Positions 864 to 35,442 of a DNA stretch of 38,597 nucleotides are shown piece after piece. The stretch comes from Flavobacteriales bacterium (lineage in GTDB: Bacteria > Bacteroidota > Bacteroidia > Flavobacteriales > BACL11). Every line of letters starts with the position of its first letter. Position 1 is the stretch's first letter. The position numbers were made by a program, and so were the translations under genes. The stretch lies in contig JABGVU010000079.1 of the NCBI GenBank assembly GCA_018645865.1, positions 1 through 38,597 on the forward strand. Direction: 5' to 3'. The notes below the pieces were generated by a model, which saw only the letters and a program-made list of their open reading frames with translations, did not search any database and was not told where the DNA came from.

Positions 864-898
864 TATACTTTTTGACAACCTACATAAGATATGATATT

Positions 899-2743
899 AT
901 GAAAGACACTAAAATGCTAACTTTTATTAAAAATATATTAATAAATATGCCATCAAGCTGGCTAAATCGAACAACCCATCGACTAGATATTTATGATGAA
1001 AAATTAGCCAAAACTCAATTCTTAGAACAGTTTGAAATCTTATTTAACAATAATAATTCTGAAGCAATAGCAATAAGTGAATTACCTACTGCTTACGACT
1101 ATATTCGATTAGGGCACCCTTTATCTTGTTTACTAGAATGGGTGATTGCTAACTTAAATAATATAAAACCAAAAAATGTAATAAGTTTTTCATCAAAGAC
1201 GATTCCTATTTTGGCAATTCTAAGAAAGAATTTATTAGCTAATAAAAGTACCCAAATTGTTTTTACAGATGAATTACCAAAGTTTATTGATTTTAAAGTA
1301 CTAAAGAATATTTATGGATATAAATTTGATTTAAAAAAAGTTGAGAAAGTAGAAGATATTTCTGCCTTTAATGGAAGTACCGTTTTCATTTCACAACAAG
1401 ATGAAATTAGTAATATTGATCTTAAATCAGATATTGACTTTTTTATCAATTTTCATTCTCAGTTTGGGAGTATTTTATTAGTAAATGGAGAACAAAATGA
1501 AAGTTACATTTCAGAAATTCAGCATGTACGCAGAAGAGAAACTATTGCAATGACGCCAGTGAATTGCCTTGCTAACTTAAATTCAATTATAAACAAGTCT
1601 ACTTTTGAAAATAACAAAAATAATACTGAATCAGATAAAAAACTTGTTTTAGAATCAATTGCAGATATTACCGATACAAATACAAAGGCAGTAGTAGGTT
1701 CTAGCGGTCTATCTATTCAGTATGCTATTATGATGGGACTTATTCATGATGCTTTAGAAAATCATAAAGGAAAAACTATCCGATTTATTGTCCCTCCAAA
1801 TTGTTATGGTGGAACAAATGATCAAGCAAGACGAGTTGCCGCTTGTATTAATAATGTTGAAGTTATGGATTTATGCGTAGATAGCGGTAACGACATGGTC
1901 AATAGTATTAATTTAGTTTTAGATGAAATCGCTAAGGAAGATGCTGTCCCATACATCATTGCTGAAATCCCAACTAACCCAAGAGTTGAAGTTCCTGATT
2001 TGAAAGAATTAGAGAAAGTGCTAAGTCAAGAATACAGAACAGCAACTGGGGGGTTGGCTATAGATCCTGTTTTTATATTAGATCAAACTTTTTGTCCTAA
2101 TGTTCACTTCTTAGGTGAAGATGAAATATTGTCAGAAGTTAGAACCATTTCGTATGTTAGTGGATCTAAGTTTCCTAGTGGTGGAGAATGTACTGCTGGG
2201 TACTGCGTTGGAAATACAAGAACAGAGTCCTTAATTGATAAAATAGAATTGCACCTAACACTTTGCGATAATGAGGCTACAAATCTTCAGTATGAGATTT
2301 TGGCAAAGCAAATGCCAACTATGAATCAAAGAATTAATGATGCATACAGGAATACACGCGAATTTGTAAACTTCATTAATAAAACTTTACCAGAAGCAAA
2401 AATCAATTTTGTATCAGAAGAATTAGCTCAACAAGGATTCACACCATCAGTATTTTCATTAGACCTACCTACTAAAGGAGATAATGATAAAGAAAAAGAA
2501 GAATATAAAAGAAAATTAAATCATGTATTAATTAATTTGATAATTACAGAAATCCCTAATGAAAGTAAATATTGTGTAAGCTATGGCCAGTTAAACGGCT
2601 GTTACTGGACGATTCCAGCTACATCTACACAAGGAACTACTAGAGAAGGTGATAAAGATTATATTGCGCGTGTTGCACTTTCTCCTAATATGGATATGGA
2701 ACATCACAAAAAAGTATTTTTAGATTTTGCCGAAACTATTTAA
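899..2743 (+). CDS. Cys/Met-metabolism-type PLP-dependent enzyme (cystathionine gamma-synthase-like) with ~250-aa N-terminal extension
   Basis: GSSGLSIQYAI, PPNCYGGT, AEIPTNPRVEVPDL and SYVSGSKFPSGGE (probable PLP lysine) match the Cys/Met PLP fold; ATG at 899 preferred over TTG at 872. Confidence 0.75.
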   Translation: MKDTKMLTFIKNILINMPSSWLNRTTHRLDIYDEKLAKTQFLEQFEILFNNNNSEAIAISELPTAYDYIRLGHPLSCLLEWVIANLNNIKPKNVISFSSKTIPILAILRKNLLANKSTQIVFTDELPKFIDFKVLKNIYGYKFDLKKVEKVEDISAFNGSTVFISQQDEISNIDLKSDIDFFINFHSQFGSILLVNGEQNESYISEIQHVRRRETIAMTPVNCLANLNSIINKSTFENNKNNTESDKKLVLESIADITDTNTKAVVGSSGLSIQYAIMMGLIHDALENHKGKTIRFIVPPNCYGGTNDQARRVAACINNVEVMDLCVDSGNDMVNSINLVLDEIAKEDAVPYIIAEIPTNPRVEVPDLKELEKVLSQEYRTATGGLAIDPVFILDQTFCPNVHFLGEDEILSEVRTISYVSGSKFPSGGECTAGYCVGNTRTESLIDKIELHLTLCDNEATNLQYEILAKQMPTMNQRINDAYRNTREFVNFINKTLPEAKINFVSEELAQQGFTPSVFSLDLPTKGDNDKEKEEYKRKLNHVLINLIITEIPNESKYCVSYGQLNGCYWTIPATSTQGTTREGDKDYIARVALSPNMDMEHHKKVFLDFAETI

Positions 2744-13648: not shown

Positions 13649-14083
13649 ATGAGAAAATTAATTCTAATGCTTATCTCAGTAATAAACATTTATTCATCAA
13701 GTGCACAAAAATATACCGATCAATACATTAAAGATGCTAGTAAAGTTGCTAAAAGTTGGTTGAGTGATATTAATAATAAGAAATATGATAATGCTTATTA
13801 TTTACTTTCAAAAGAGGTCAAAGCAATAACTAAACAAGATAACTGGATAGGATTTGTTAATTCCGAAATGAATGAATTTGGAGATTTAAAGAGTCGTGAA
13901 GTAACTCAAATATTTTTCCAAAGCAAAATAGAAGGAATGGAGGATGGATTTTATGTAGTGATAGATTATGATGTTAATTACGAATTAACAGAAGATCATA
14001 CTGAAAAAATGATACTAAAACAAAATGATAACAGTAAGTGGGAAATATTAGTATTTAGCTATGACTTCAAAAGTGGAGAGTAA
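13649..14083 (+). CDS. Secreted DUF4019-like protein
   Basis: Signal peptide; AKSWLSDINNKKYDNAYYLLSKEVK...WIGFVNSEMNEFGDLKSREV. Confidence 0.65.
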   Translation: MRKLILMLISVINIYSSSAQKYTDQYIKDASKVAKSWLSDINNKKYDNAYYLLSKEVKAITKQDNWIGFVNSEMNEFGDLKSREVTQIFFQSKIEGMEDGFYVVIDYDVNYELTEDHTEKMILKQNDNSKWEILVFSYDFKSGE

Positions 14084-14084
14084 T

Positions 14085-14312
14085 TTACAAACTATTTTTT
14101 GTAACCCAATATCTATATCCAAAAATTAATTTTTTATAGCCTTTAAGTTTAGATAAATCTTTTCTAATTAAAGATGGAAAGATTACTTTATTAATAATTG
14201 CTAATCCTTTAAAAATATACTTTTTCCGAAACAGCATTAACAGTAAAATTATTAATAGAATCAATAAAATAGTTATTATGCCATTACCAAGTCCTGTACT
14301 AAGTATTATCAT
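14085..14312 (-). CDS. Small predicted membrane protein (75 aa), last gene of surface operon
   Basis: One long hydrophobic N-terminal segment, basic C-terminus; start overlaps upstream gene stop by 4 nt. Confidence 0.5.
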   Translation of the reverse strand: MIILSTGLGNGIITILLILLIILLLMLFRKKYIFKGLAIINKVIFPSLIRKDLSKLKGYKKLIFGYRYWVTKNSL

Positions 14313-17300
14313 CTTATTAAAGTTATATGACCAACAATAACTTCAGTTAAACTAGCCTTAGTTTGTTTATATTCAATTACAAAAGGATATACTCCTTGGA
14401 TTGATAAATTTCCATCAAGCATAACCCCATTCCAACTGCCCATTTTATAATACGGATCCGTATTTTCAAAATTATTACAGATATTACCATCCTGTGAGGG
14501 AGTGGTGAGTAAAATTTCATTCGATTCAAAAATTATTTCACTACCCCATCTTTTATGAATTTTAATATTAAAAGAATAAAAACTCCCCAATCCTTTTGCA
14601 TAGAATTCATCATTACAATAATCGCCATTTGGCGTAAAACTATTTGGTGTAAATATTTTATTATCAGCATTAATACACACTTCAATTGCAAAGGAATCTA
14701 TACACCCTCCAGTATTAGCTAATATTAATTCAACAGAAAACAAACCCGTATCAGCATATACATGTATGGGGTTTTCTGCAAACACATAAGGAGTTTTTGA
14801 ATTATCTCCAAAATTCCAAAAAGAAGCTTGACTCAACTCAATAGGATTAACAATACTATTATCTAAAAATTGAAATTCGGCATCAATTAAAGAAATACAT
14901 TCTGTTTTGTTAGCAAAAAACAAAGCATCAATTTCATCATAACCAGGAATGCTAATGGTATCAGACAATTCACAGTTGGTAGAAACATCAGTAACAACAA
15001 CTTCATATCTATTATTTACAAAATCAATAATGCTATCTGTAAGGCTAACCGGGTTAGTGTTCCATAAGTAGGTGTAATTTGCAGTCGGCATGACATTCAC
15101 TTTTGCAAAACCTAGCTCACCATAACAAAGTTTAGTTGAAGTAGAAAAACTAGCTAAAAAGTTCGGAAATACAAATAGAGGAATGCTATCAACAACATCA
15201 TCAGAACAGCCATCAGAAACTGAAACTATATAAAGTGTGCTAATTGAAGGGTTCACTAAATGATTAAAACTATTACTTAAACCGTTATCCCAACTAAAAT
15301 TATAATCTCCAATTCCTCCACTAGCATTTACGCCTATATTAATATAATCTCCATTACAAATAGTATCTTCTGAACTATAAACATCAGCCAATAATTCACC
15401 ACTTATTAAAACAACAAAATCAATAGTTTCAGTACAAATTCCACTTCCGTATGAATAAGTAATTGTATGATACCCTTCTCCTGCCTGTAAAGGGTTAAAG
15501 TAGGATCCATTAATTCCATTTCCTGAAAGCACACCCCCTGTTGGTGCTGTATTTACAAAAATATTGGTATCCTTAAAACAATAAGTTAAATTAAGCCCAG
15601 AAAGATTTAATTGCGGTAAATCATAAATCGTAATACTAAAAGTATCTACACAACCATTAGGAGCTGTATAAGCAACATAGTGCTGACCTAAACTTAATTG
15701 ACTTGGAGCATACAAACCCTGATTATTATCAACAATAGCATTACCTACCCAATAACCGCCACTAGGATTTGCATTTAAAATTACATCAGGAGAAGATTGA
15801 CAAATTAGGGTGTCAATTAATACCGATTGAGAAGCAACTTTTACAATTAAATTATCTGAACAATTATTAGCTGTAAAAGTTAAAGTATGAATTCCTGTCC
15901 CAGAAATTTGTGGGCTAAATTCTCCTGGTAAATTAGTGTTAATTATCCCATTTCCAGCCCAAATTCCATTAGCTGGGGTTCTAGGTACTGTTGCTAAATC
16001 CAATTGCTGAACTCCCTCATTCATACAAAGGAATAAAGTGTCAATCTGAATATCAGTATCCACAACTAAAACCTCTGCAGTATCGGTACACCCACCAAAA
16101 GTATAAGTTACTATATCATTTCCGATTCCTAAAGAAGGATCAAAAGTACCCATAGTTTGGTTCGTAATATGTGTACCATTCCATGCTCCAACTAATGGAC
16201 TACCAGTCAAATTAAAAGGTGCCTCAGAAGGGCAAACTACTAAATCAGAACCTGCATTAATCTCATTCACTAAAATATCAACATAATCATCACACCCCTG
16301 TATAGAATATATTAAATTATGTAATCCACTATTAGCTACATCTGTCAGGAAGAACCCATCAACCGTTACTGGCCCTCCTAAAATTGATAACTTATCTATT
16401 GCAACATCCGATTGCCATGTGCCTGTAATTACTCTTAATCTTAATTTTACTTCAGTAGCATTAAAAGCTGATAAGTCAATTACTGCTTCTTGCCAAAGGC
16501 TACCTAAATCACCTGCTTGATACCAATGATTCCATGTCCAAGTGGAACCATTATCAATTGAAACATCAACAGCAAAACTACCTTGTCCTGCTCCTTGTTT
16601 ATGAAACCAAAAATGTAAAATAGGATTGTCGTAAGCCGATAAATTCAAACAAGGACTAATAATTGCAGCTTCTTTTGAATTGTTATTTGGACTAGATGCT
16701 TCTGTATAAATATAATTATAGCCTTCAAAAGCTGATGATGGACCTGTACCTCCTGAAGGAGTGGTTCCACTACTAACCACCCAATCAAAATCATTTGCAG
16801 GGTCTTGTGTCCAATTACTCAATCCTAATTCAAAACCATCCTGAAATGGAAATTGTAAAACAGTGTTTAGACATAAACTTGGCTGTTGAGGGTTATCTGG
16901 AAATACTGACCATACCCCATTAACAGGTGTAAAAGAAAGTCCGTAATTTCCTGAGTTCTGACAAAGTGTATCATCTATCTGAGTAGTAACCCCAGCAACT
17001 GTTATCAATAAGGTATCTGAACAACCATTCGGAAGCGTATAAATTGCTGTAATTACTGAAGGTCCGTTTCCTGTTGTAATATTACCATTTGCTTGAACGC
17101 AATTACAAGTTGAGCTCCAAGTTCCTCCTGGAGTAGTTGAAGATGTTGTAATATTAAAATTAGTGTTGAAACAAGCTGAAATATTTGGCCCTGCATTTAC
17201 GCCTAAGACTGTGACATCCAAATCATCAGAACAACCACCAATTCCATACGTAACTGTATAGGTTCCTGCTACCAATGCATTTGGGTTAAATGTTCCATTG

Positions 17301-18382
17301 TTTCCACTTGTAATTCCTGTTCCCCACCACCATCCACCAGCAGGATTAGCTGTTACATTAATTGAAGGAGCAGTTTGACAAATACTAATAGGTACTTGAG
17401 TTATAGGAGGATTTAAGACCACAATAGTTATGGTGTCACTTTGTGGAGCTGCCATACTAGCATCACTTACTGTAACAATATAGCTAGTTGTTACTAAAGG
17501 ACAAACTGTCCATACACCAGGACTATTGTTCCAAGCAGGATTCCAACTATAAGAATAAGAAGTGACATCTCCACCATTTACAGTTGCATATAATTCAGCA
17601 CATTCTCCTACACAAATAGTATCATTATTTGCCGTTAACTCTACCTCTAAAGGGCAATCATTTATTATGAACTGGAAGGTTGATGTTAAATCCCAAATAC
17701 TATCACAAGCATCCTGAAAATAAGACTGAAAAGAAAGAGTATAAATACCACTTTCATTTAAGCCAGGAAAAAGAGAAAGCTGAACCTGATTAGTAGAGTC
17801 GTTTATACAATTTAAAGCTATCGCATTTACCGTTTGATTTAATTGTCCCCCAACAAAAACTTGAGCTGTCCCAACTGAATCGCAATGAATATTTTGATCC
17901 AGTTCAATAATTAAAGTATTTAAGCTACAACTTACAGCAGTAGGCAAACTAATTACAGGAGGTTGTGGTATAGAAATTTGAGATTCCCAACTCAATTCAA
18001 ATCCTTCAGCAGCAACATTAACATCCGAAATAAAATCGATAGTAATGCAGCCAGAGGAGGTGATCTGAGGAGGTAAATTTACACCAGAATATGGCCCTCC
18101 CAATATTGGAAAGGTATTGTTTGGACCATCATAAATTATTACATAATCATTCTGTGGTTCCGTTTCAAAAAAAGAAAAATTAATTGCAATAGAAATAGCT
18201 CCTCCAGGACAAATAGTAAAGGAAAAACTCTCATTATGCGTATACCATCCTGGGTTATTCGTATTGGCTTCACTATCGGTTAATGTCCCCTCACAATCAA
18301 ATACAGTTTGGTTGGACATGGTATACTGTGCGAGAATACCATTTCCAAAACACATAAAAACCAAAATAAAAAAATATTTCAT
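14309..18382 (-). CDS. Giant secreted protein: CUB-like N-terminus, MAM-like and PKD-like segments, T9SS type-B / gliding-motility-associated C-terminal domain
   Basis: Signal peptide; CUB-like FSFTICPGGAISIAINFSFFETEPQNDYVIIYDGPN; PKD-like FWNFGDNSKTPYVFAENPIHVYADTGLFSVEL; C-term KIFTPNSFTPNGDYCNDEFYAKGLGSFYSFNIKIHKRWGSEIIFES...GVYPFVIEYK. Confidence 0.88.
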   Translation of the reverse strand: MKYFFILVFMCFGNGILAQYTMSNQTVFDCEGTLTDSEANTNNPGWYTHNESFSFTICPGGAISIAINFSFFETEPQNDYVIIYDGPNNTFPILGGPYSGVNLPPQITSSGCITIDFISDVNVAAEGFELSWESQISIPQPPVISLPTAVSCSLNTLIIELDQNIHCDSVGTAQVFVGGQLNQTVNAIALNCINDSTNQVQLSLFPGLNESGIYTLSFQSYFQDACDSIWDLTSTFQFIINDCPLEVELTANNDTICVGECAELYATVNGGDVTSYSYSWNPAWNNSPGVWTVCPLVTTSYIVTVSDASMAAPQSDTITIVVLNPPITQVPISICQTAPSINVTANPAGGWWWGTGITSGNNGTFNPNALVAGTYTVTYGIGGCSDDLDVTVLGVNAGPNISACFNTNFNITTSSTTPGGTWSSTCNCVQANGNITTGNGPSVITAIYTLPNGCSDTLLITVAGVTTQIDDTLCQNSGNYGLSFTPVNGVWSVFPDNPQQPSLCLNTVLQFPFQDGFELGLSNWTQDPANDFDWVVSSGTTPSGGTGPSSAFEGYNYIYTEASSPNNNSKEAAIISPCLNLSAYDNPILHFWFHKQGAGQGSFAVDVSIDNGSTWTWNHWYQAGDLGSLWQEAVIDLSAFNATEVKLRLRVITGTWQSDVAIDKLSILGGPVTVDGFFLTDVANSGLHNLIYSIQGCDDYVDILVNEINAGSDLVVCPSEAPFNLTGSPLVGAWNGTHITNQTMGTFDPSLGIGNDIVTYTFGGCTDTAEVLVVDTDIQIDTLFLCMNEGVQQLDLATVPRTPANGIWAGNGIINTNLPGEFSPQISGTGIHTLTFTANNCSDNLIVKVASQSVLIDTLICQSSPDVILNANPSGGYWVGNAIVDNNQGLYAPSQLSLGQHYVAYTAPNGCVDTFSITIYDLPQLNLSGLNLTYCFKDTNIFVNTAPTGGVLSGNGINGSYFNPLQAGEGYHTITYSYGSGICTETIDFVVLISGELLADVYSSEDTICNGDYINIGVNASGGIGDYNFSWDNGLSNSFNHLVNPSISTLYIVSVSDGCSDDVVDSIPLFVFPNFLASFSTSTKLCYGELGFAKVNVMPTANYTYLWNTNPVSLTDSIIDFVNNRYEVVVTDVSTNCELSDTISIPGYDEIDALFFANKTECISLIDAEFQFLDNSIVNPIELSQASFWNFGDNSKTPYVFAENPIHVYADTGLFSVELILANTGGCIDSFAIEVCINADNKIFTPNSFTPNGDYCNDEFYAKGLGSFYSFNIKIHKRWGSEIIFESNEILLTTPSQDGNICNNFENTDPYYKMGSWNGVMLDGNLSIQGVYPFVIEYKQTKASLTEVIVGHITLIR

Positions 18383-18816
18383 TATTTATTTACTGTAATT
18401 AAATCAGTAGTAACTTTATTGCTCCAATTCTTATTTTTATCCTGAATACGAATAGTAAAAGTTAATGTTTCTGTATTTCCATTACCAAATATAAATGGAG
18501 CATCAACCTCAATAAGTATTTCACCTGTTATTGAAACTTCACTCTGAGGAGGATTTAATGGAAATAAATGATAATAATCAGAATTAGAAAGTCGGCTATC
18601 CTTTATTTCTAATGATAAATAGTCAGGGTCAGAAAAACCCACAAAACCCTGAGGATGACTATAAGAAATTCTTACATTAATATTTTCTTCGAACTCAATA
18701 ATTTCAGAAGGATTCATTTCAATCAAACTAATTGAAAACTCATTTTCAACTTCCGTTTTTTTACAATTTGAAAAAATTATTGATACAGCTAGTAATATGC
18801 AAGTTATCCCTTTCAT
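18382..18816 (-). CDS. Small lipoprotein (Ig-like?) of the surface operon
   Basis: Lipobox SIIFSNCKKTEVEN; TAATG overlap with next gene. Confidence 0.65.
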   Translation of the reverse strand: MKGITCILLAVSIIFSNCKKTEVENEFSISLIEMNPSEIIEFEENINVRISYSHPQGFVGFSDPDYLSLEIKDSRLSNSDYYHLFPLNPPQSEVSITGEILIEVDAPFIFGNGNTETLTFTIRIQDKNKNWSNKVTTDLITVNK

Positions 18817-18818
18817 TA

Positions 18819-19769
18819 TTACTGCACTGTAAATGTAAAGTGTTTGACAATATTATAATCCGATCCATTAGATGGAATTTCGGTAACCGGATTAATATCA
18901 TCTTTTACAAATATCTTAATAAAAACAATATCCCCAGAATTATAAGATGACATATCTAGTGTGTACTTATGATAAAAATCATCAGTTGCACTTCCATAAT
19001 ATCCTGTTTCATTTTTAGGTGGTGTAATAATTCCCAAAGGAAATTCAGGTTTATTTTCAAAATTAAATAAATTTGTAGAAAATTTAATTTTATTATAACT
19101 TAGTTGATTAGAAGTTAAAATATCATCCTGAACCGAGAACCATAAATCAATTGAATTAGCTGTTGCAGGCACATATATCGTACCTCTAGGCAGCTCCCTT
19201 GGCAAAGGAGTATTTTGCCCTGTAACAAAAGCGATTGCACCTCTCATTTCAGGAATATTATTGGGTTGCAAAGGTGAATTACCAAATATATCTTTTGCTC
19301 CATTATCAATCCAATCTTTTATATTTTGAATATATTCTTCCTTATGATCATACCAATAATGCTCAGGGTTATATTCTGCTGAGAGTGGCATAATTCCTGA
19401 TATACCGTCAATATCTTCAATTAACCTTTTGTACAAGATTGACTTATCAGAACTGCTTGGCTTTACTCTAAACTCATAAGCATTTGTATTATCATTTTTT
19501 ATTACTGGTTGATAAACAAGCGTGTTGTACGAACTTTCAATAGTCCTAAAGTCAGGTTCAAAAGTTCCATCATGACAACCCGAATTTGCACAAGTAGGAA
19601 TAAAAATATTATTATGAAGTGCTTGAATAGTAGTTGGATCAGAGAAGTAATTTACAGTTGTGTCTTCAGGAGGATTCAAATTAGAATTATCATAAGGGTT
19701 AATTTCTCCATCTTTCTTACAGGCATGAAAAACAAGAGCAACTATAATTATATAAAGACTCTTTCTCAT
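18819..19769 (-). CDS. Lipoprotein with cytochrome-c-like (PSCyt1-like) segment
   Basis: Lipobox VFHACKKDGE; FIPTCANSGCHDGTFEPDF (CX4CH) followed by IMPLSAEYN...YIQNIKDWIDNGAKD. Confidence 0.65.
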   Translation of the reverse strand: MRKSLYIIIVALVFHACKKDGEINPYDNSNLNPPEDTTVNYFSDPTTIQALHNNIFIPTCANSGCHDGTFEPDFRTIESSYNTLVYQPVIKNDNTNAYEFRVKPSSSDKSILYKRLIEDIDGISGIMPLSAEYNPEHYWYDHKEEYIQNIKDWIDNGAKDIFGNSPLQPNNIPEMRGAIAFVTGQNTPLPRELPRGTIYVPATANSIDLWFSVQDDILTSNQLSYNKIKFSTNLFNFENKPEFPLGIITPPKNETGYYGSATDDFYHKYTLDMSSYNSGDIVFIKIFVKDDINPVTEIPSNGSDYNIVKHFTFTVQ

Positions 19770-19771
19770 TT

Positions 19772-21103
19772 TTATATCAAATCAAATAAGGAGTTATTAC
19801 TAGCCGTAAGTCCTGCACCCATCATCTCATTTTTAAACCCTAAAATCTCAGCTATTGTTGGTGTAATATTTACAATATCTCCAATTTGATTATTTTCATT
19901 TCCTATTGTTAGATTCGAATCAACTCCAGGACCAATCACCATGTTAAAGATCCTTCTACTATTAGCATCTGAATGATCAAAGCCAGTAAAAGCATTAGCA
20001 TCAACAATATTATTCGATTCTAAATTTCTACCATGTTCTGGCGAAACAATTAAAGTTGTGTTATTAGCCATTTCAGGTATATTATTTTGAATATAATCCC
20101 ATAAATGACCAACAGCATGATCAGTTGCGTGCAAACTTTTTAAGTAGCCTGAGAAATCAGAATGACAGGCATCTACAGATGATAAATAAACTACTGAAAA
20201 CGTAGGTCTGAAACGTTTTAGCACTTCACAAGCATAACCTATAGTTTGTCCATCTCTATTGCCTCCAACTGGAGGATGAACAATTGTTCCATTTTCTTTT
20301 TTCTCAAACATATCTTTTACAAATTGCTTAATCTCTGCTTTTTCTTCTTCAGTATTACCAATATTAGGCAAAGGTTTCCCTTGTGAATACCATACATTGT
20401 CTAAAAAATATTTCATTTTATACATAGGGTCCAACTCATCTTCAGGATGATATATTTTTGCATTTTTAAGATGCTTTTCTCCATCATCACCAAAAGTAAT
20501 TGTAGGCGCTAAAAAATTAGCTCCAAATTGAGAGCCATAATCAGGGTGTAAACTATAATCCAATAAAGGCAGTGAATTACCAATTCCATTTCCTATAAAC
20601 CAAGTTTTTGTTGCCTTTACCCCTTGATGTCTTCTGAGATATTCAAATATCGTTGGCATTGAAGGTTTCATTCTCAAGCCTTGAGAATATAAATAATTTC
20701 CGGTCAACAAAGTATTTACTCCAGCATAATGACCAACTGTTGATGCATTTACTTCTTTGAATAAAGTGCCTTGTTGCTGTAAAGTTTGAGATAATAATTT
20801 AGGGATTGGAGTGTCTCCGCTTATTATTCCATCTGTACCGTAAACAATCTTATCAGTGGGTGGCGCTCCATCAAACATGTTATACATAATATTTCCAGCA
20901 CTTGGATAATCTTGACTATCATCTAAATATCTTTGTAAAATAGATTCTTGCTGCCTAACTCCTCCTGCAAATGCAACAAAAACAACATGATCGGCCATAC
21001 GACTTCCAGTTGCAGCAAACAATCTACCACTTGGCAAAATAAAAGGAGCTGTGATAGCAGCAGCACCTAAGGCTGTATTTTTTAAAAAATTTCTTCTTTT
21101 CAT
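19772..21103 (-). CDS. Tat-exported alkaline-phosphatase-superfamily / DUF1501-like protein
   Basis: Tat signal MKRRNFLKNTALGAAAITAPFILPSG; VNTLLTGNY, SSVDACHSDF, TTLIVSPEHGRN, FDHSDANSRRIFNMVIGPGV; ATG at 21103 is preferred over 21124 because it gives a clean Tat signal. Confidence 0.7.
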   Translation of the reverse strand: MKRRNFLKNTALGAAAITAPFILPSGRLFAATGSRMADHVVFVAFAGGVRQQESILQRYLDDSQDYPSAGNIMYNMFDGAPPTDKIVYGTDGIISGDTPIPKLLSQTLQQQGTLFKEVNASTVGHYAGVNTLLTGNYLYSQGLRMKPSMPTIFEYLRRHQGVKATKTWFIGNGIGNSLPLLDYSLHPDYGSQFGANFLAPTITFGDDGEKHLKNAKIYHPEDELDPMYKMKYFLDNVWYSQGKPLPNIGNTEEEKAEIKQFVKDMFEKKENGTIVHPPVGGNRDGQTIGYACEVLKRFRPTFSVVYLSSVDACHSDFSGYLKSLHATDHAVGHLWDYIQNNIPEMANNTTLIVSPEHGRNLESNNIVDANAFTGFDHSDANSRRIFNMVIGPGVDSNLTIGNENNQIGDIVNITPTIAEILGFKNEMMGAGLTASNNSLFDLI

Positions 21104-21104
21104 A

Positions 21105-21587
21105 TTAATAAAACTGATATTCATTAGACAAAGAAAATGCAGAATACACCATCTCTACTGATACATCAGGATGTGATGCAAAAAAAAATAAGAAGAATTC
21201 TCGTTCTGCCTCTGTTAAATCGCGTACATAAAACCGCTTATAGGTTTGTTCAATAAAAGCATTAACATCAGTCCTCATAAGTGAATCAGATGGCATGGTG
21301 ACTGCTGATTTATTCATAAAATTACTTAAGATTATTTCATGAGCAACTTCTTTATCTCCAATTGATTCAATACAGTTTGTAATCTCTACTAATTCATTTG
21401 CTGACAAAGCCTTTTGAAACAAATTAGCGTATAAGATAGAGATATATTGAGATATAGTTTTTAACTTATTTTTATTTGCATTATATGAAGTTGCGTTCAC
21501 TTGGTTTACATCATAAATAATATCATCCTTCTTACAAGATGTCGCTAATACTGATAAACAGAAAAATAATAGAGTTATCTTTTTCAT
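21105..21587 (-). CDS. Lipoprotein with YxxLxxRxLTxxE-like helical motifs (160 aa)
   Basis: Lipobox LATSCKKDD; ILYANLFQKALSANELVEI and QTYKRFYVRDLTEAEREFF. Confidence 0.6.
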   Translation of the reverse strand: MKKITLLFFCLSVLATSCKKDDIIYDVNQVNATSYNANKNKLKTISQYISILYANLFQKALSANELVEITNCIESIGDKEVAHEIILSNFMNKSAVTMPSDSLMRTDVNAFIEQTYKRFYVRDLTEAEREFFLFFFASHPDVSVEMVYSAFSLSNEYQFY

Positions 21588-21593
21588 AAGCGA

Positions 21594-22508
21594 TTAGTTA
21601 AAGTGAGCATATTCATCTGTTTTCATTATTGCTCTTTGCATTTTCTGAAAATCTTTATCCACAAAATAAGTTTCCATTAAAACAGTTGTTTCTTGAGTAG
21701 TTGGATTTCTTGCTAACAAAGTACCAAAACACCATACAATAGTACCTTCATAAAATTCTTTAGTATTACAAATAAGATGTGTAAAATCACCTTTATTATT
21801 GACTGATCCTCCTAGTACTATTTGAGCAGTATTATCTTCAATAATCTTATATACCTCATCAAATTCATACTGTGTTGGATAACGAAAAAGAAGATTGTCA
21901 AAAGCAGCATTAATAAAATTAAAAGTATTCATGTTAATATTATCATAAACTGAATTGAAAATCATTCTTCTATGCATCTCATTGATTTCAATAAACCCGT
22001 TATAGTATTGCAATTCAGATATTAAAACATTATTTAGTTTATGATAATTTACAAGTTTCTTATTAGCATCCAGCATATTGCCATTAACTGAATCAACTAA
22101 ATAAGCCGAATAATGATTACCTAATTGAGACTCTATATAATTATTAGAAGCCCCCTCAATTAATCGTACTTTTATCATATCATACATCCTATGATAATAT
22201 GCAAATTTATAAGATGAATCTCCTTCGATAAAACTGGTATCAGATTGTAGTTTTATTATCAAGTCGCCCCTACTTTCTAAAGTAATATCTTTATCTTTTA
22301 AAAACTGAACATCATTTTCCATTTCTATATCAAAAGGCTCTCTTCCAAGCAAGTCAATATATAATCGGTTTACATAATTTTCCAACAACAAAGTAGGAAT
22401 TTCACCATAATATGGTGCATCATTATCATTAATGATTTCAACATCATTCTTACAGGACAATAAGCCAATAAAGAAAAGATATATATATAAAACTTTATTG
22501 CGCATCAT
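21594..22508 (-). CDS. Lipoprotein with DUF1549/DUF4214-like motifs (304 aa)
   Basis: Lipobox FIGLLSCKND; VNRLYIDLLGREPFDIEMENDVQFLKD; FDNLLFRYPTQYEFDEV; CFGTLLARNPTTQETTVL. Confidence 0.6.
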   Translation of the reverse strand: MMRNKVLYIYLFFIGLLSCKNDVEIINDNDAPYYGEIPTLLLENYVNRLYIDLLGREPFDIEMENDVQFLKDKDITLESRGDLIIKLQSDTSFIEGDSSYKFAYYHRMYDMIKVRLIEGASNNYIESQLGNHYSAYLVDSVNGNMLDANKKLVNYHKLNNVLISELQYYNGFIEINEMHRRMIFNSVYDNINMNTFNFINAAFDNLLFRYPTQYEFDEVYKIIEDNTAQIVLGGSVNNKGDFTHLICNTKEFYEGTIVWCFGTLLARNPTTQETTVLMETYFVDKDFQKMQRAIMKTDEYAHFN

Positions 22509-22523
22509 ATTTAAACTATTATC

Positions 22524-23540
22524 TTATTCTATAACTATGCTTTTTTCTACTGTTCCGTCATCATAGATATAAAAGAGTACCTCATTCTTAGTCCCTTTTG
22601 TTTCTCTTCCTAATAGGTCAGTTATTTTAAGAAGTTTTTTGTTTGTAGTTTGCTCCTCTATTGCACTTACTGTACAAACAGAAGTGCAAATGGCTTGAAT
22701 AAGATACATTCCCATTCCTGTTCCAGGATCTACACAAGCATTTCCAATACAATCCCAAGATGGAACTGGAGGAATAACAATACAAGAATCTAATATACAA
22801 TCATTAAGGGTAGTATATTGACCATTGCCTGTCAAAGGATCTATACAAGCACCATTAACACAATCCCAAGATGGGGCTGGAGGCATAACATTACAAGAAT
22901 CTAATACACAATCATTAAAGGTAGGATATTGACCATTACCTGTCAAAGGATCTATACAAGCACCATTAACACAATCCCAAGATGGAACTGGTGGCATACA
23001 TGCAAGTAAGCATGCAGTAGCTGAAAGGTACTGACCATTACCTGTTAAAGGATCTATACAAGCACCATTAACACAATCCCAAGATGGAATTGGAGGCACA
23101 CAAGGTAATAATTGACCGTTAGGACCAATAGCAGATGTATAAGTAAATATTCCATTATACATAGCAATACAATCATTATTATAAATATTTCCATCACATC
23201 CACATACAGGAGCGTACATCATATTACAAGGTCCTACTCCGCCAGTCGGAATGCAACTTTCGCAAATTGTAGTATCACAACCTGTTATAATATCAGTAAC
23301 AGTTACGCACCAACCTGAGTAAAATGGTTTTTGACTAGAAGAACCTATTGTACCGTCATTCCAAACATAAGTATATTGTGAGATTCCATTAACAGACACA
23401 TGCATCATTATAGTTGATGATGATGTAAAGTCAATGTAATTACTGACTCCAGAGAGTGAGCAAGGACCTGTTTGAGCTAGAACATTAGAAGTTGAAAATG
23501 CTAGTAGAAAAGCAAATAGTAAAGTATAGAAGTTTTTCAT
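22524..23540 (-). CDS. Secreted Kazal-like domain protein with four PSWDCxxxACxDPxTGxGxY repeats and T9SS-like C-terminal sorting segment
   Basis: Signal peptide; CNMMYAPVCGCDGNIYNNDCIAMYNG; four repeats; C-term KLLKITDLLGRETKGTKNEVLFYIYDDGTVEKSIVIE. Confidence 0.8.
   Translation of the reverse strand: MKNFYTLLFAFLLAFSTSNVLAQTGPCSLSGVSNYIDFTSSSTIMMHVSVNGISQYTYVWNDGTIGSSSQKPFYSGWCVTVTDIITGCDTTICESCIPTGGVGPCNMMYAPVCGCDGNIYNNDCIAMYNGIFTYTSAIGPNGQLLPCVPPIPSWDCVNGACIDPLTGNGQYLSATACLLACMPPVPSWDCVNGACIDPLTGNGQYPTFNDCVLDSCNVMPPAPSWDCVNGACIDPLTGNGQYTTLNDCILDSCIVIPPVPSWDCIGNACVDPGTGMGMYLIQAICTSVCTVSAIEEQTTNKKLLKITDLLGRETKGTKNEVLFYIYDDGTVEKSIVIE
22668..23096 (-). repeat. Four tandem coding repeats (~33-37 aa each; CX4C-X15-CX3/4C)
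   Basis: PPIPSWDCVNGACIDPLTGNGQY..., PPVPSWDCVNGACIDPLTGNGQY..., PPAPSWDCVNGACIDPLTGNGQY..., PPVPSWDCIGNACVDPGTGMGMY...; first three nearly identical at DNA level. Confidence 0.9.
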
Positions 23541-23636: not shown

Positions 23637-24374
23637 TTATCTAGCAAACAAAAACTCTGATTTTTCAGTTTCTTCTGTAAATTGATAACCCAAATTTGAA
23701 AACGATTTTAAACTCTCAGATTTTTTTATTTTATTTTTAATAATAAAATTCGCCATCTCTCCTCTAGCTTTTTTAGCGAAAAAAGAAATCACCTTTAATT
23801 TTCCAGTTTTAAAATCCTTAAAAACAGGAGTAATTACAGGGTTAATAAATTTATTGAGATGAATTGCTTTACTATATTCCTCTGACGCTAAGTTAATAAT
23901 CTCCTCTCCCTTTTCTAGTTCCTCTTTAAGAGATTGATGTAACTTTTCACCCCAAAATTTATATAAATTATTTCCAGTTTTGGTTATTAGTTTTGTTCCC
24001 ATTTCTAAACGATAAGGATAAATTAAATCTTTCGGCTTTAACAAACCATATAATCCTGATAATATTCGCAGGTTTTCTTGTGCAAAGTCTAATTCAATAT
24101 TAGAAAATGTTTCTGCTTTCAATCCTTGGTAAACACCTCCTTTAAACATAAATAAAGCTTGCCCTACATCTTTAGCATTCCACTGCTGAAATCTTTTCCA
24201 ATTTAATTGAGCTAAATTATCACTCAAATTCATCAAACTTTTTATATCGCTTACTGTATAAGTTTTTAATTCCTTTACTAGATAATTAGCTTCTTCTAAA
24301 AACTGATTAGATGTTCCTTTAGTAATAAAATTATCAGTAGCAAGTTTTTTAGCTGGAGAAATAATTATCTTCAT
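23637..24374 (-). CDS. yaaA: Peroxide stress protein YaaA (UPF0246)
   Basis: MKIIISPAKKLA, FKGGVYQGLKAETFS, LRILSGLYGLLKPKDLIYPYRLEMGTKL, ISFFAKKARGEMANFII. Confidence 0.95.
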   Translation of the reverse strand: MKIIISPAKKLATDNFITKGTSNQFLEEANYLVKELKTYTVSDIKSLMNLSDNLAQLNWKRFQQWNAKDVGQALFMFKGGVYQGLKAETFSNIELDFAQENLRILSGLYGLLKPKDLIYPYRLEMGTKLITKTGNNLYKFWGEKLHQSLKEELEKGEEIINLASEEYSKAIHLNKFINPVITPVFKDFKTGKLKVISFFAKKARGEMANFIIKNKIKKSESLKSFSNLGYQFTEETEKSEFLFAR

Positions 24375-30751: not shown

Positions 30752-32596
30752 TTATAGATTTTTTAAAATTAATCTTGCATTATGATTCGGAGCAATTTCT
30801 AAAATTTTATTGAGATATACTTTTACATCTTTCATTTTATTTTGCATTTGTGCTGAAAGAACTAAATTTTCATAGGCTAATATATAATCAGGATCTAAAG
30901 CAATGGCTTGTTTTAAATACAAATCTGCTTTTAGGGAATTTTGCTGTAAGATGAATATATACCCTAAATTTAGGTGTATCTCTTTATGTGTAGGATTAAG
31001 AGCTAATGCAGTTTCAAAAATTACTTTAGCTGCTTTTAGTTGTTTGTTATCAATTAGAAAAGCTCCTAACTTTAATTTATAATCAATTACGAACGGCATA
31101 AGAGAAACTGCATTATCATAATACCTTTTAGCATCCACTGTTAAGTTTTTTAATGCAAATACCTCAGCCATTCTACTATAAGCTAATGCCAAGTCACTAT
31201 TATTGTGTTTTAGGGAGTCAATGAGATTACTCATCACAAAATTAATTAGGCCTTTATTATCACCCTTAAGATAGAAATATTGTATGAAAGAAGGGAAATC
31301 AATAGCTGTATTATTAAGTAGAGTAAATGCACTATCCAAATATATTGGATTTTGCTCAAAGCTTTCAAAACGCTTTAAATAAGCCTTTGCCTTTGATAAA
31401 TTAGTTGGAGTATCATTATTGATGGCAAATAAACCTAAGAAATTTCCTTTTTCATTTTTTATAGTGGAAGGAATCGCTATTTTATGGTCAGTAATACTTA
31501 CATGCTGTATGTCAGTAGAGGTTGATTTTGGCATGTGACAAGAAATACAATTCTGAGTTTCTTCCTCTTTACAATCAATATGACATTGCATGCATTTATT
31601 ATCAAAATATCTAGTGGATAAATTAGTTACACTTTTGTGCGGATCATGGCATGTAACACAAGTAACCTCAGAAGATTTAAAACAAGCGCTTTGCTTTAAT
31701 CTATCCACATGTGAGGCCATTATAAATGACTCTTCATTTTCATACTTTGGCAAGTAGACATCCATCACCTCACTTAAATGCTGACCGGGTTTAAAATCAG
31801 TGAATTTTTTTCCTTCATTTAAAATCGCTGTACCTTGTAAATGACACCTTTGGCAAACGTCAAACTGCAAATCCAAAGGTAATCTTTTAGGATTTACAAT
31901 TGAATAATCTATGTATTTTGAGGTATCAATAATATTCCCAGCCAACTTTTGTTTTACATGCACCTCACCGGGCCCATGGCATCTTTCACAATCTATTCCA
32001 CTAGATATAAATTCATATTTATTAAGAGAACCCTCTACATGATTTGGGTAAGCATTATGGCAACTCATACACTCTAACCCAATTTCACGAGAAAAACGCG
32101 TGTTATTTCCATTTTCAAATCCAGGCGGTAAGTCTGAAATTTTATCTTGACAATAATAAGTATACGGCATTTGGTACACATAGCCATTAATTTCAAATAA
32201 GTGAGAATTAGTATGTTGCCCACTACCTATCTTATAGTTTACTTTTTTGATGAGTTGATGCGTAGTATCCTTTCCTTTTATTCGGAATTCTTTTAAATAC
32301 AGACTATCATTCTGCCAAAAAGGTTGGTAGGATAAATTTTTAATAGTATCCTTAATTATTGGCATTTCAGAATTCGATAAAGCTGAATACTCTTTTGTGG
32401 CAAAATGAAAGGATTTTCCCATTCCTGTTTGCATATAGGAATCATAGATTTCAGCATGACAAGCCCTGCACTGCTCTTTATCTATGTACCTTACAGTATC
32501 ATTATGATTTAAATATTCGGTATAAGTACTTACCTCCCCTCTTTGACAAGCAAACAAAAGGATAGAAACAATAAATAGTATTAAACTATTTTTCAT
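30752..32596 (-). CDS. Multihaem cytochrome c lipoprotein with C-terminal TPR region
   Basis: Seven CXXCH motifs (CRACH, CMSCH, CERCH, CQRCH, CVTCH, CMQCH, CISCH); lipobox LLFACQRG; TPR-like HLNLGYIFILQQNSLKADLYLKQAIALDPDYILAYENL. Confidence 0.9.
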   Translation of the reverse strand: MKNSLILFIVSILLFACQRGEVSTYTEYLNHNDTVRYIDKEQCRACHAEIYDSYMQTGMGKSFHFATKEYSALSNSEMPIIKDTIKNLSYQPFWQNDSLYLKEFRIKGKDTTHQLIKKVNYKIGSGQHTNSHLFEINGYVYQMPYTYYCQDKISDLPPGFENGNNTRFSREIGLECMSCHNAYPNHVEGSLNKYEFISSGIDCERCHGPGEVHVKQKLAGNIIDTSKYIDYSIVNPKRLPLDLQFDVCQRCHLQGTAILNEGKKFTDFKPGQHLSEVMDVYLPKYENEESFIMASHVDRLKQSACFKSSEVTCVTCHDPHKSVTNLSTRYFDNKCMQCHIDCKEEETQNCISCHMPKSTSTDIQHVSITDHKIAIPSTIKNEKGNFLGLFAINNDTPTNLSKAKAYLKRFESFEQNPIYLDSAFTLLNNTAIDFPSFIQYFYLKGDNKGLINFVMSNLIDSLKHNNSDLALAYSRMAEVFALKNLTVDAKRYYDNAVSLMPFVIDYKLKLGAFLIDNKQLKAAKVIFETALALNPTHKEIHLNLGYIFILQQNSLKADLYLKQAIALDPDYILAYENLVLSAQMQNKMKDVKVYLNKILEIAPNHNARLILKNL

Positions 32597-34002: not shown

Positions 34003-35442
34003 ATGTCAGCATCTTATGAATTAAAATTGAATGATTGGATAAATAAAGAAAAATTAGGAGTAAATTTATTAAACTCTGTAGGCACTTTAATGTATGATAA
34101 AGGAATTGAATTAGTCCTTTTCAGAAATCAATTATTAGAAATTGGGGTTTCAGAATTAATGAATACTATTTTTTATGCTAACAATGTAGTAAATAGAAAG
34201 GTAAATATTGAAACTGCTGCTGCATTAGCTAATGAAATGTTAAACCTGGACTTAGCTCCTTCAAAATTAGATATTGGCTTACTAAGTGCTGAATATTTTG
34301 AGCAAGACGCAACTGATGTAAATGCTTTCTTAACTGAAAAACTAGCTAACTTTATTGGTACCGACAAGGACAAAGTTAAACCAAAAGATGTTATCCTTTA
34401 TGGATTTGGTAGAATTGGAAGGCTTGCAGCCAGAGAGCTTGTAAAACAAGCTGGGAAAGGACAACAATTAAGATTAAAAGCTATAGTTGTAAGACGATTA
34501 ACTGATGCCCAAATTATTAAAAGAGCTGATTTGTTAAGAAACGATTCTGTTCATGGTGCTTTTAAAGGAGTTGTTGATGTGGATTTGCCAAACCAAGCTA
34601 TTCTTGTTAACGGACAAGTTATCAAACTTATTGATGGAGGAAACCCAGAAGATATTGACTATACTATACATGGAATTGATAATGCTTTATTAATTGATAA
34701 TACAGGAGCATTTACCGATAAAGAAGCTTTATCAATACATTTACAATCCAAAGGAGTAAATAAAGTATTATTAACAGCTCCTGGGAAAGGAATTCCAAAT
34801 ATTGTTTATGGAATTAACTCTAAAGAAATTGATGTTGATGCAACTGATATTTTTTCAGCAGCATCCTGTACAACAAACTGTATTGCTCCTATTTTACATG
34901 TAGTTGAAAACAAATATGGCGTAAACAAAGGACATTTAGAAACTGTGCATTCTTATACCAATGACCAAAACTTATTGGACAACATGCACAACAAACCAAG
35001 AAGAGGGAGATCGGCAGCTATTAACATGGTAATCACTTCAACAGGAGCAGGCAATGCTGTTACTAAAGTTATTCCTTCTTTAGTAGGCAAACTTTCAGCA
35101 AATGCTGTTCGTGTTCCTACCCCAAATGTTTCATTAGCAATTTTAAAGCTGAACTTAAATAAAGCGACTTCATTAAAGGATATTAATGAAACAATAAGAG
35201 AGGCAGCTTTAAAAGGAAGTTTAGTAAACCAAATTAACTATCAAATTGATCCTGAATTAGTATCTACTGACGTTATAGGAAACAACTGCTGCTCGGTATA
35301 TGACAGTAAAGCAACTATTGTTACTGAAAATGGTGAGGATGTAGTACTTTATGTTTGGTATGACAATGAGTTTGGTTACACAAAGCAAGTTATCCGTTTA
35401 GCAAAGCTAATTGCTAAAGTAAGAAGATTAACTTACTATTAA
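34003..35442 (+). CDS. gap: Glyceraldehyde-3-phosphate dehydrogenase, long form with ~125-aa N-terminal extension
   Basis: LYGFGRIGRLAAREL, FSAASCTTNCIAPILHVVE (catalytic Cys), VWYDNEFGYTKQVIRL. Confidence 0.93.
   Translation: MSASYELKLNDWINKEKLGVNLLNSVGTLMYDKGIELVLFRNQLLEIGVSELMNTIFYANNVVNRKVNIETAAALANEMLNLDLAPSKLDIGLLSAEYFEQDATDVNAFLTEKLANFIGTDKDKVKPKDVILYGFGRIGRLAARELVKQAGKGQQLRLKAIVVRRLTDAQIIKRADLLRNDSVHGAFKGVVDVDLPNQAILVNGQVIKLIDGGNPEDIDYTIHGIDNALLIDNTGAFTDKEALSIHLQSKGVNKVLLTAPGKGIPNIVYGINSKEIDVDATDIFSAASCTTNCIAPILHVVENKYGVNKGHLETVHSYTNDQNLLDNMHNKPRRGRSAAINMVITSTGAGNAVTKVIPSLVGKLSANAVRVPTPNVSLAILKLNLNKATSLKDINETIREAALKGSLVNQINYQIDPELVSTDVIGNNCCSVYDSKATIVTENGEDVVLYVWYDNEFGYTKQVIRLAKLIAKVRRLTYY

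Follow-up and report, generated by a model that had tools for sequence, protein, structure and literature searches.

A conserved Bacteroidota operon of lipoproteins and a Tat-exported enzyme that resembles the planctomycetal PSCyt/DUF1501 module

Does a cluster of eight minus-strand genes in a Flavobacteriales bacterium correspond to the PSCyt1-DUF1549-DUF1553 plus DUF1501 module of Planctomycetes, with the parts carried by separate genes? The question arises from a 38,597-nt stretch of DNA (contig JABGVU010000079.1), here called the window, whose first-pass annotation had likened the cluster at 14085-23540 to a disassembled planctomycetal system coupled to cargo of the type IX secretion system (T9SS). 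From 5' to 3' along the operon, the genes and their products are called K, A, B, T, C, I, G and m (Table 1); A, B, C and I are lipoproteins, and T carries a signal for twin-arginine translocation (Tat). In Planctomycetes and Verrucomicrobia, PSCyt and PSD domains of unknown function are common (PMC2754498, PMC5615132), and in R. baltica PSD1 and PSC2 occur 41 times each (PMC2754498). The cluster is a real, widespread and undescribed conserved operon in Bacteroidota, and no description of a split, lipoprotein-based, T9SS-linked form of PSCyt/DUF1501 was found in the open-access literature. As to its kinship, we lean towards reading the locus as a dispersed Bacteroidota version of the planctomycetal module, whose products may act as a complex in the roles proposed below.

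Conservation of the cluster in Bacteroidota

T was searched in 198 genomes of the same order and in 85,462 GTDB species genomes. The latter scan yielded 379 relatives, and the best 80, taken together with the DNA around them, are the basis of all GTDB counts given here. These 80 relatives come from Flavobacteriales, Cryomorphaceae, Chitinophagales, Sphingobacteriales and other taxa, mostly from metagenome-assembled genomes. When only loci whose contig was long enough were counted, T was accompanied by B in 73/76, by A in 65/68, by C in 70/71 and by I in 68/69 cases, and G was colinear with T in 61/61. In a tree of T, the G-bearing loci split from ten five-gene (A-B-T-C-I) loci with full support. 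A, B, T, C and I are passed on as a set, which in one clade always includes G; conserved synteny in relatives, the absence of which would have spoken against the first-pass annotation, is borne out by these neighbourhood counts.

The order sample gave a similar picture. Close orthologues of T (59-92% identity) were present in two families, one of them the window's own. A second version with ~40% identity was present in further families, and in two genomes it occurred as an extra copy. Contig ends aside, the A-B-T-C-I order was the same in every T locus whose neighbourhood was read, and in one genome A was separated by 2.5 kb from the rest of the cluster. A, T and C were found in the same 25 of the 198 genomes (Fisher p ~1e-30, relatedness ignored), the exceptions being one genome with fragments of A and C and no full T (G096) and one with A near a contig end (G062). 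Since the same order recurs in dozens of genomes, the frames of the six central genes are far beyond chance. K is mainly restricted to the close family and m occurs in very few loci, and the conserved unit is therefore A-B-T-C-I, plus G in one clade, that is six genes and not eight. Thus, of the eight-gene unit proposed initially, the part from A to G holds, and the Kazal and transmembrane genes fall outside it.

Two kinds of matches were set aside. Weak T matches of 300-400 aa in Flavobacteriaceae are other phosphatase-superfamily proteins with no A, C or I adjoining, and 505-aa matches near some five-gene clusters are, judged by eye, gpmI-like (phosphoglycerate mutase) and stand outside the system.

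Resemblance to PSCyt1, DUF1549, DUF1553 and DUF1501

Direct Pfam and NCBIfam scans of the cluster proteins gave names above cut-off for T and G only, and by Pfam thresholds none of the A, B, C and T proteins of the window belongs to PSCyt1, DUF1549, DUF1553 or DUF1501. The claim is therefore one of remote homology and shared logic, not of membership. Profiles were compared using hhalign, whose E-values are relative only, with reference sets from Bacteroidota genomes in which the fused system proper and DUF1800-DUF1501 pairs are found; the partner proteins of DUF1501 in these pairs were labelled DUF1800 from their position and a reading of the sequence. As controls, signal peptides were cut and each comparison was repeated against 40 column-shuffled queries. 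The pairs T-DUF1501, C-PSD, A-PSD, A-DUF1800, B-PSD3 and A-B scored above 40/40 shuffles, and B-DUF1800 and I-PSD, which served as negative controls, did not.

The T profile matched a set of eighteen DUF1501 proteins with hhalign 97.4% over 378 columns. Residues D318, H321, G365-R366 (in the likewise invariant GRN of PE.GRN) and D383-H384 are invariant in T homologues and align with the D.H, E.GR and DH motifs of DUF1501. The D..H and DH residues presumably occupy the metal-site positions expected in the alkaline phosphatase superfamily; a conserved Ser/Thr nucleophile was not identified in T. Phosphodiest was above the Pfam cut-off in T itself, and in the individual members Sulfatase was matched by 9/26 and DUF1501 by 1/26 (E 2.2e-4). 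The gathering threshold of DUF1501 (PF07394) was not reached by T, DUF1501 was absent from the Pfam results for the organism's own genome, and a PDB sequence search with the T profile gave no match. The RR motif of the Tat signal is invariant in 26 homologues, and TAT_signal (E 0.024) and TIGR01409 (E 0.0092) both fell just below cut-off. The description of T as a Tat-exported DUF1501 counterpart thus stands as profile homology with aligned motifs, below the Pfam threshold.

C gave hhalign 96.3% against fused PSCyt1-DUF1549-DUF1553 proteins at their PSCyt1 end, with the haem motif, the MP and the WI..GA motif aligned. CX4CH and WIxxGA are each present in 78/80 C homologues, and M127-P128 is invariant. 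The haem motif of C is spaced as CX4CH, whereas that of PSCyt1 is CX2CH. C of the window had no match at the gathering threshold of PSCyt1 (PF07635), plain HMMER found one member only (best E 0.048), and a PDB sequence search with the C profile gave no match. The structural model of C has a helix running into CX4CH, a second long helix with WI..GA, and then a beta domain. The shared motifs uphold C as a counterpart of PSCyt1, again below the Pfam threshold. The organism's own genome encodes TatC and a cytochrome c assembly protein, so that folded export of T and haem attachment to C are possible. Elsewhere in the window, 30752-32596 (-) encodes a c7/c554-like multihaem cytochrome with a doubled CXXCH, joined to a tetratricopeptide repeat region, and the run of genes to which it belongs includes a YceG-like (MltG) one and a phosphoglucomutase; the organism thus makes c-type cytochromes.

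The helical lipoproteins A and B are the more distant parts. PSCyt2/DUF1549 was matched by 10/56 A members (best 4.5e-5) and PSD1/DUF1553 by 4/56 (best 0.022), and the comparison of A with PSD proteins gave a weak match (hhalign 44%) that none of 40 shuffles equalled. A carries a DUF1549-like motif at its N-terminus, and the closing motifs of both A and B are similar to the terminal ones of PSD-type proteins. A weak similarity of A to DUF1800 was seen too (2/56 members). The relationship between B and A holds with signal peptides removed, and B shows similarity to fused PSD-type proteins at their C-terminal end. The AlphaFold model of A (mean confidence, pLDDT, 91.8) is nearly all helix; a solved structure of the DUF1549/DUF1553 family was looked for and none was found. 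The regular expression used for the helical motif was too strict for reliable copy counts in DUF1549/DUF1553 proteins or in B. A match of the A profile to BamM in the PDB (9n2d, E 0.068) was rejected, as it covered only positions 5-60, near the lipoprotein signal.

How does this arrangement compare with described systems? It shares with PSCyt1-DUF1549-DUF1553 plus DUF1501 pairs a Tat-type DUF1501-like protein beside a PSCyt1 domain and DUF1549/DUF1553-like helices. In those pairs the first three domains form one fused protein of 730-1130 aa, whereas in the window and the relatives examined they are separate lipoprotein genes. The gene order differs as well (scaffold, enzyme, cytochrome), and the cluster has the extra protein I, the T9SS giant G, and CX4CH instead of CX2CH. 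Furthermore, it occurs in one or two copies per genome, compared to 4-8 matches per genome for the fused PSCyt system. Two Bacteroidota genomes (G255 and G266, loci L217-L227) contain 4 to 8 PSD1 matches, most adjoining DUF1501, thus a genuine fused planctomycete-type system occurs in Bacteroidota too. DUF1800 plus DUF1501 pairs of Bacteroidota and Proteobacteria resemble the cluster in having a DUF1501 partner and a helical protein encoded directly upstream, but the loci that were read contain no cytochrome and no lipoprotein set, and A is weakly DUF1800-like and B is not. The helical repeat of A and B is that of DUF4214 and PBS_linker_poly, which are domains of other proteins; we know of no cytochrome or DUF1501 partner for DUF4214 or phycobilisome (PBS) linker domains. 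In some bacteria, DUF1501 travels with DUF1800 and chitin synthases (PMC5122149).

Accompanying proteins, layout and neighbouring genes

For I, no Pfam or NCBIfam match was obtained, and its comparison with PSD proteins was no better than shuffles. Its inclusion in the planctomycetal-type set has to be dropped, as it has no counterpart in planctomycetal proteins. CHU_C (PF13585) of G scored 33.6 bits (cut-off 27), and a CUB domain at the N-terminus with CHU_C at the C-terminus was present in 8/8 distant G homologues scanned; among the G copies scanned, MAM was above threshold in that of the window only.

In K, Kazal_1 remained below cut-off (E 0.003), and the T9SS-like tail was read by eye, with no Pfam match there. 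The WDC repeats noted at first are real: a 111-bp tandem repeat of 3.2 copies at 22749-23098 (-) encodes the PSWDCVNGACIDPLTGNGQY unit of K and is the source of the WDC motif. K homologues, found mainly in the close family, also occur in two other genomic contexts (L060 and L062), and in the former a K relative directly follows a 307-aa phosphatase-superfamily gene that was also picked up by the T profile. In several relatives K is longer (up to 575 aa), and in one locus (L066) it seems split into several frames. Homologues of m were present in 5 of ~115 loci; some genomes are represented twice in this set, also among the 5.

Table 1. Genes of the cluster, listed from 5' to 3' along the operon
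Gene	Product	Position	Strand	Length
K	Secreted Kazal-like and WDC-repeat protein, T9SS-like C-terminus, lineage-specific first gene	22524-23540	-	338 aa
A	All-helical lipoprotein, DUF1549/DUF1553/DUF4214-like	21594-22508	-	304 aa
B	Lipoprotein, half-size relative of A	21105-21587	-	160 aa
T	Tat-exported alkaline-phosphatase-superfamily protein, DUF1501-like	19772-21103 (ORF reaching 21124)	-	450 aa as full ORF
C	Lipoprotein, PSCyt1-like monohaem cytochrome domain and C-terminal beta domain	18819-19769	-	316 aa
I	Conserved lipoprotein, no known family, beta-rich by eye	18382-18816	-	144 aa
G	T9SS type B cargo; N-terminal CUB, MAM, PKD, CHU_C (Pfam)	14309-18382	-	1357 aa
m	Transmembrane microprotein, rare lineage-specific last gene	14085-14312	-	75 aa

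The junctions between the open reading frames (ORFs) were read directly, and the eight minus-strand genes lie where, and in the order in which, they had been annotated. The successive junctions are 15 nt, 6 nt, 1 nt, 2 nt, 2 nt, TAATG and a 4-nt overlap. The B/T junction is 1 nt (TAA T ATG) if T begins at the MKRR Met at 21103 instead of at 21124. This start, which gives a protein of 443 aa, is probably the right one, since the homologues begin at the same Met. Upstream lies co-directional yaaA, whose end at 23637 leaves a gap of 96 nt to the first ATG at 23540, and downstream a DUF4019 gene at 13649-14083 (+) is convergent. A promoter and terminator scan was uninformative for promoters (62 promoter-like sites versus 58.5 expected), and a strong internal terminator was not found. 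Outside the cluster, a 623-aa ORF at 872-2743 (+) has an unusual long N-terminal part and Cys_Met_Meta_PP, a domain of pyridoxal phosphate enzymes, as its sole Pfam match (residues 259-505), and a glyceraldehyde-3-phosphate dehydrogenase with ~128 extra residues at the N-terminus is encoded at 34003-35442 (+).

Possible roles and rival explanations

If the locus is a dispersed version of the planctomycetal module, A, B, C and I would be anchored in the outer membrane, facing outward at least in part, in a complex with T. With its putative D..H / DH metal site, the latter may act as a hydrolase or transferase on a glycan or lipid that bears a phosphate- or sulfate-type ester, and C may act as a single-electron carrier for a linked redox step. 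A and B would form the scaffold, which in Planctomycetes is fused to the cytochrome, I would be a small partner in the complex, and G could be an exported surface protein or adhesin that is matured, anchored or accompanied by it. All four lipoproteins start lipobox-like. A surface lipoprotein export signal, C-X-K-(D/E)2-X, has been described at the mature N-terminus (PMC5080379), and B of the window fits this rule exactly (CKKDDI); among the homologues a start of this type is found in 38/74 I, 26/74 B, 18/72 C and 10/71 A proteins. A bolder proposal, which we put forward tentatively and regard as possible, is that the locus encodes a modular surface redox/hydrolase machine, widespread in Bacteroidota, which corresponds to the planctomycetal PSCyt/DUF1501 module in unfused form and is dedicated to processing or anchoring the T9SS giant.

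Several observations weigh against such a module. The agreement with the export signal is partial, and A, C and I of the window fit C-X-K-(D/E)2 in part only. Without the Tat signal and the N-terminal region, the hhalign value for T and DUF1501 drops to 72%, with 0/40 shuffles as high. A Foldseek search of the C model against the PDB gave no cytochrome match, the top matches being beta domains, and that of the A model gave nothing significant, with PBS linkers as the best sensible matches. DUF4214 was matched by 37/56 A and 21/26 B members, and the PBS linker by 21/56 A members. Finally, the five-gene loci have no G homologue after the cluster, so that the core need not be coupled to T9SS. The annotated link to T9SS cargo consequently applies to one clade, where G accompanies the core without exception, and not to its sister clade.

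Part of these data can be read as independent assembly: the operon would combine a Tat phosphatase-superfamily enzyme, a generic cytochrome c-like lipoprotein and DUF4214-type scaffolds, and its likeness to the planctomycetal module would be convergence and not common ancestry. For A and B, PSCyt2/PSD1 is indeed surpassed by DUF4214 in the number of members matched and by PBS linkers in strength of match, T matches Phosphodiest or Sulfatase in more members than DUF1501, and only a single C member reached PSCyt1 in plain HMMER. However, all three component types, from families named beforehand, are matched together in one operon, the profile comparison clearly favours DUF1501 and PSCyt1, and the N-terminal motif of A and the terminal motifs of A and B resemble those of DUF1549 and PSD-type proteins, respectively. 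We therefore consider independent assembly unlikely, while giving it more weight than any other competing explanation. With regard to the idea that the parts of PSCyt1, DUF1549, DUF1553 and DUF1501 are found on separate genes, family similarity and synteny are present, and its weaker side is A and B, which show weak to moderate homology to DUF1549/DUF1553 and are also like DUF4214 and PBS linkers, together with I, which lacks a counterpart. The first-pass annotation was largely correct on homology, and less so on the boundary of eight genes and the functions that it suggested.

It is distinctly less probable that the cluster is a non-redox platform, in which C would have no working haem and the core would fold, glycosylate or anchor G, and other cargo in other genomes. 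In its favour, partners are usually required by type B T9SS cargo, all 61 loci of one clade have G after the core, and the CUB and CHU_C ends of G are conserved. Yet CX4CH and the downstream MP are practically invariant among ~80 divergent homologues, which is hard to explain without haem, and the core is kept without G in the sister clade. Least probable of all is glycan oxidation or hydrolysis for feeding, with oligosaccharides from algae or other sources as substrates. Such a role has been proposed for the PSCyt proteins of freshwater Verrucomicrobia, whose genes lie near sulfatases and carry carbohydrate-binding modules (PMC5615132). T does belong to the phosphatase/sulfatase superfamily, but neither a glycoside hydrolase nor SusC/SusD was present among the window proteins scanned, and a genome has one or two clusters, not many.

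Should the bolder proposal of a surface redox/hydrolase machine be correct, then PSCyt1-DUF1549-DUF1553, DUF1800-DUF1501 and the operon described here would form one superfamily of surface complexes composed of a helical scaffold, a cytochrome and a Tat enzyme. As a low-copy cluster with its parts on separate genes, it would make the division of labour of PSCyt, PSD and DUF1501 testable piece by piece. The consistent T9SS cargo partner points to the cell surface as a possible site of action, and the cluster provides functional leads for four protein families that have no Pfam or NCBIfam name.

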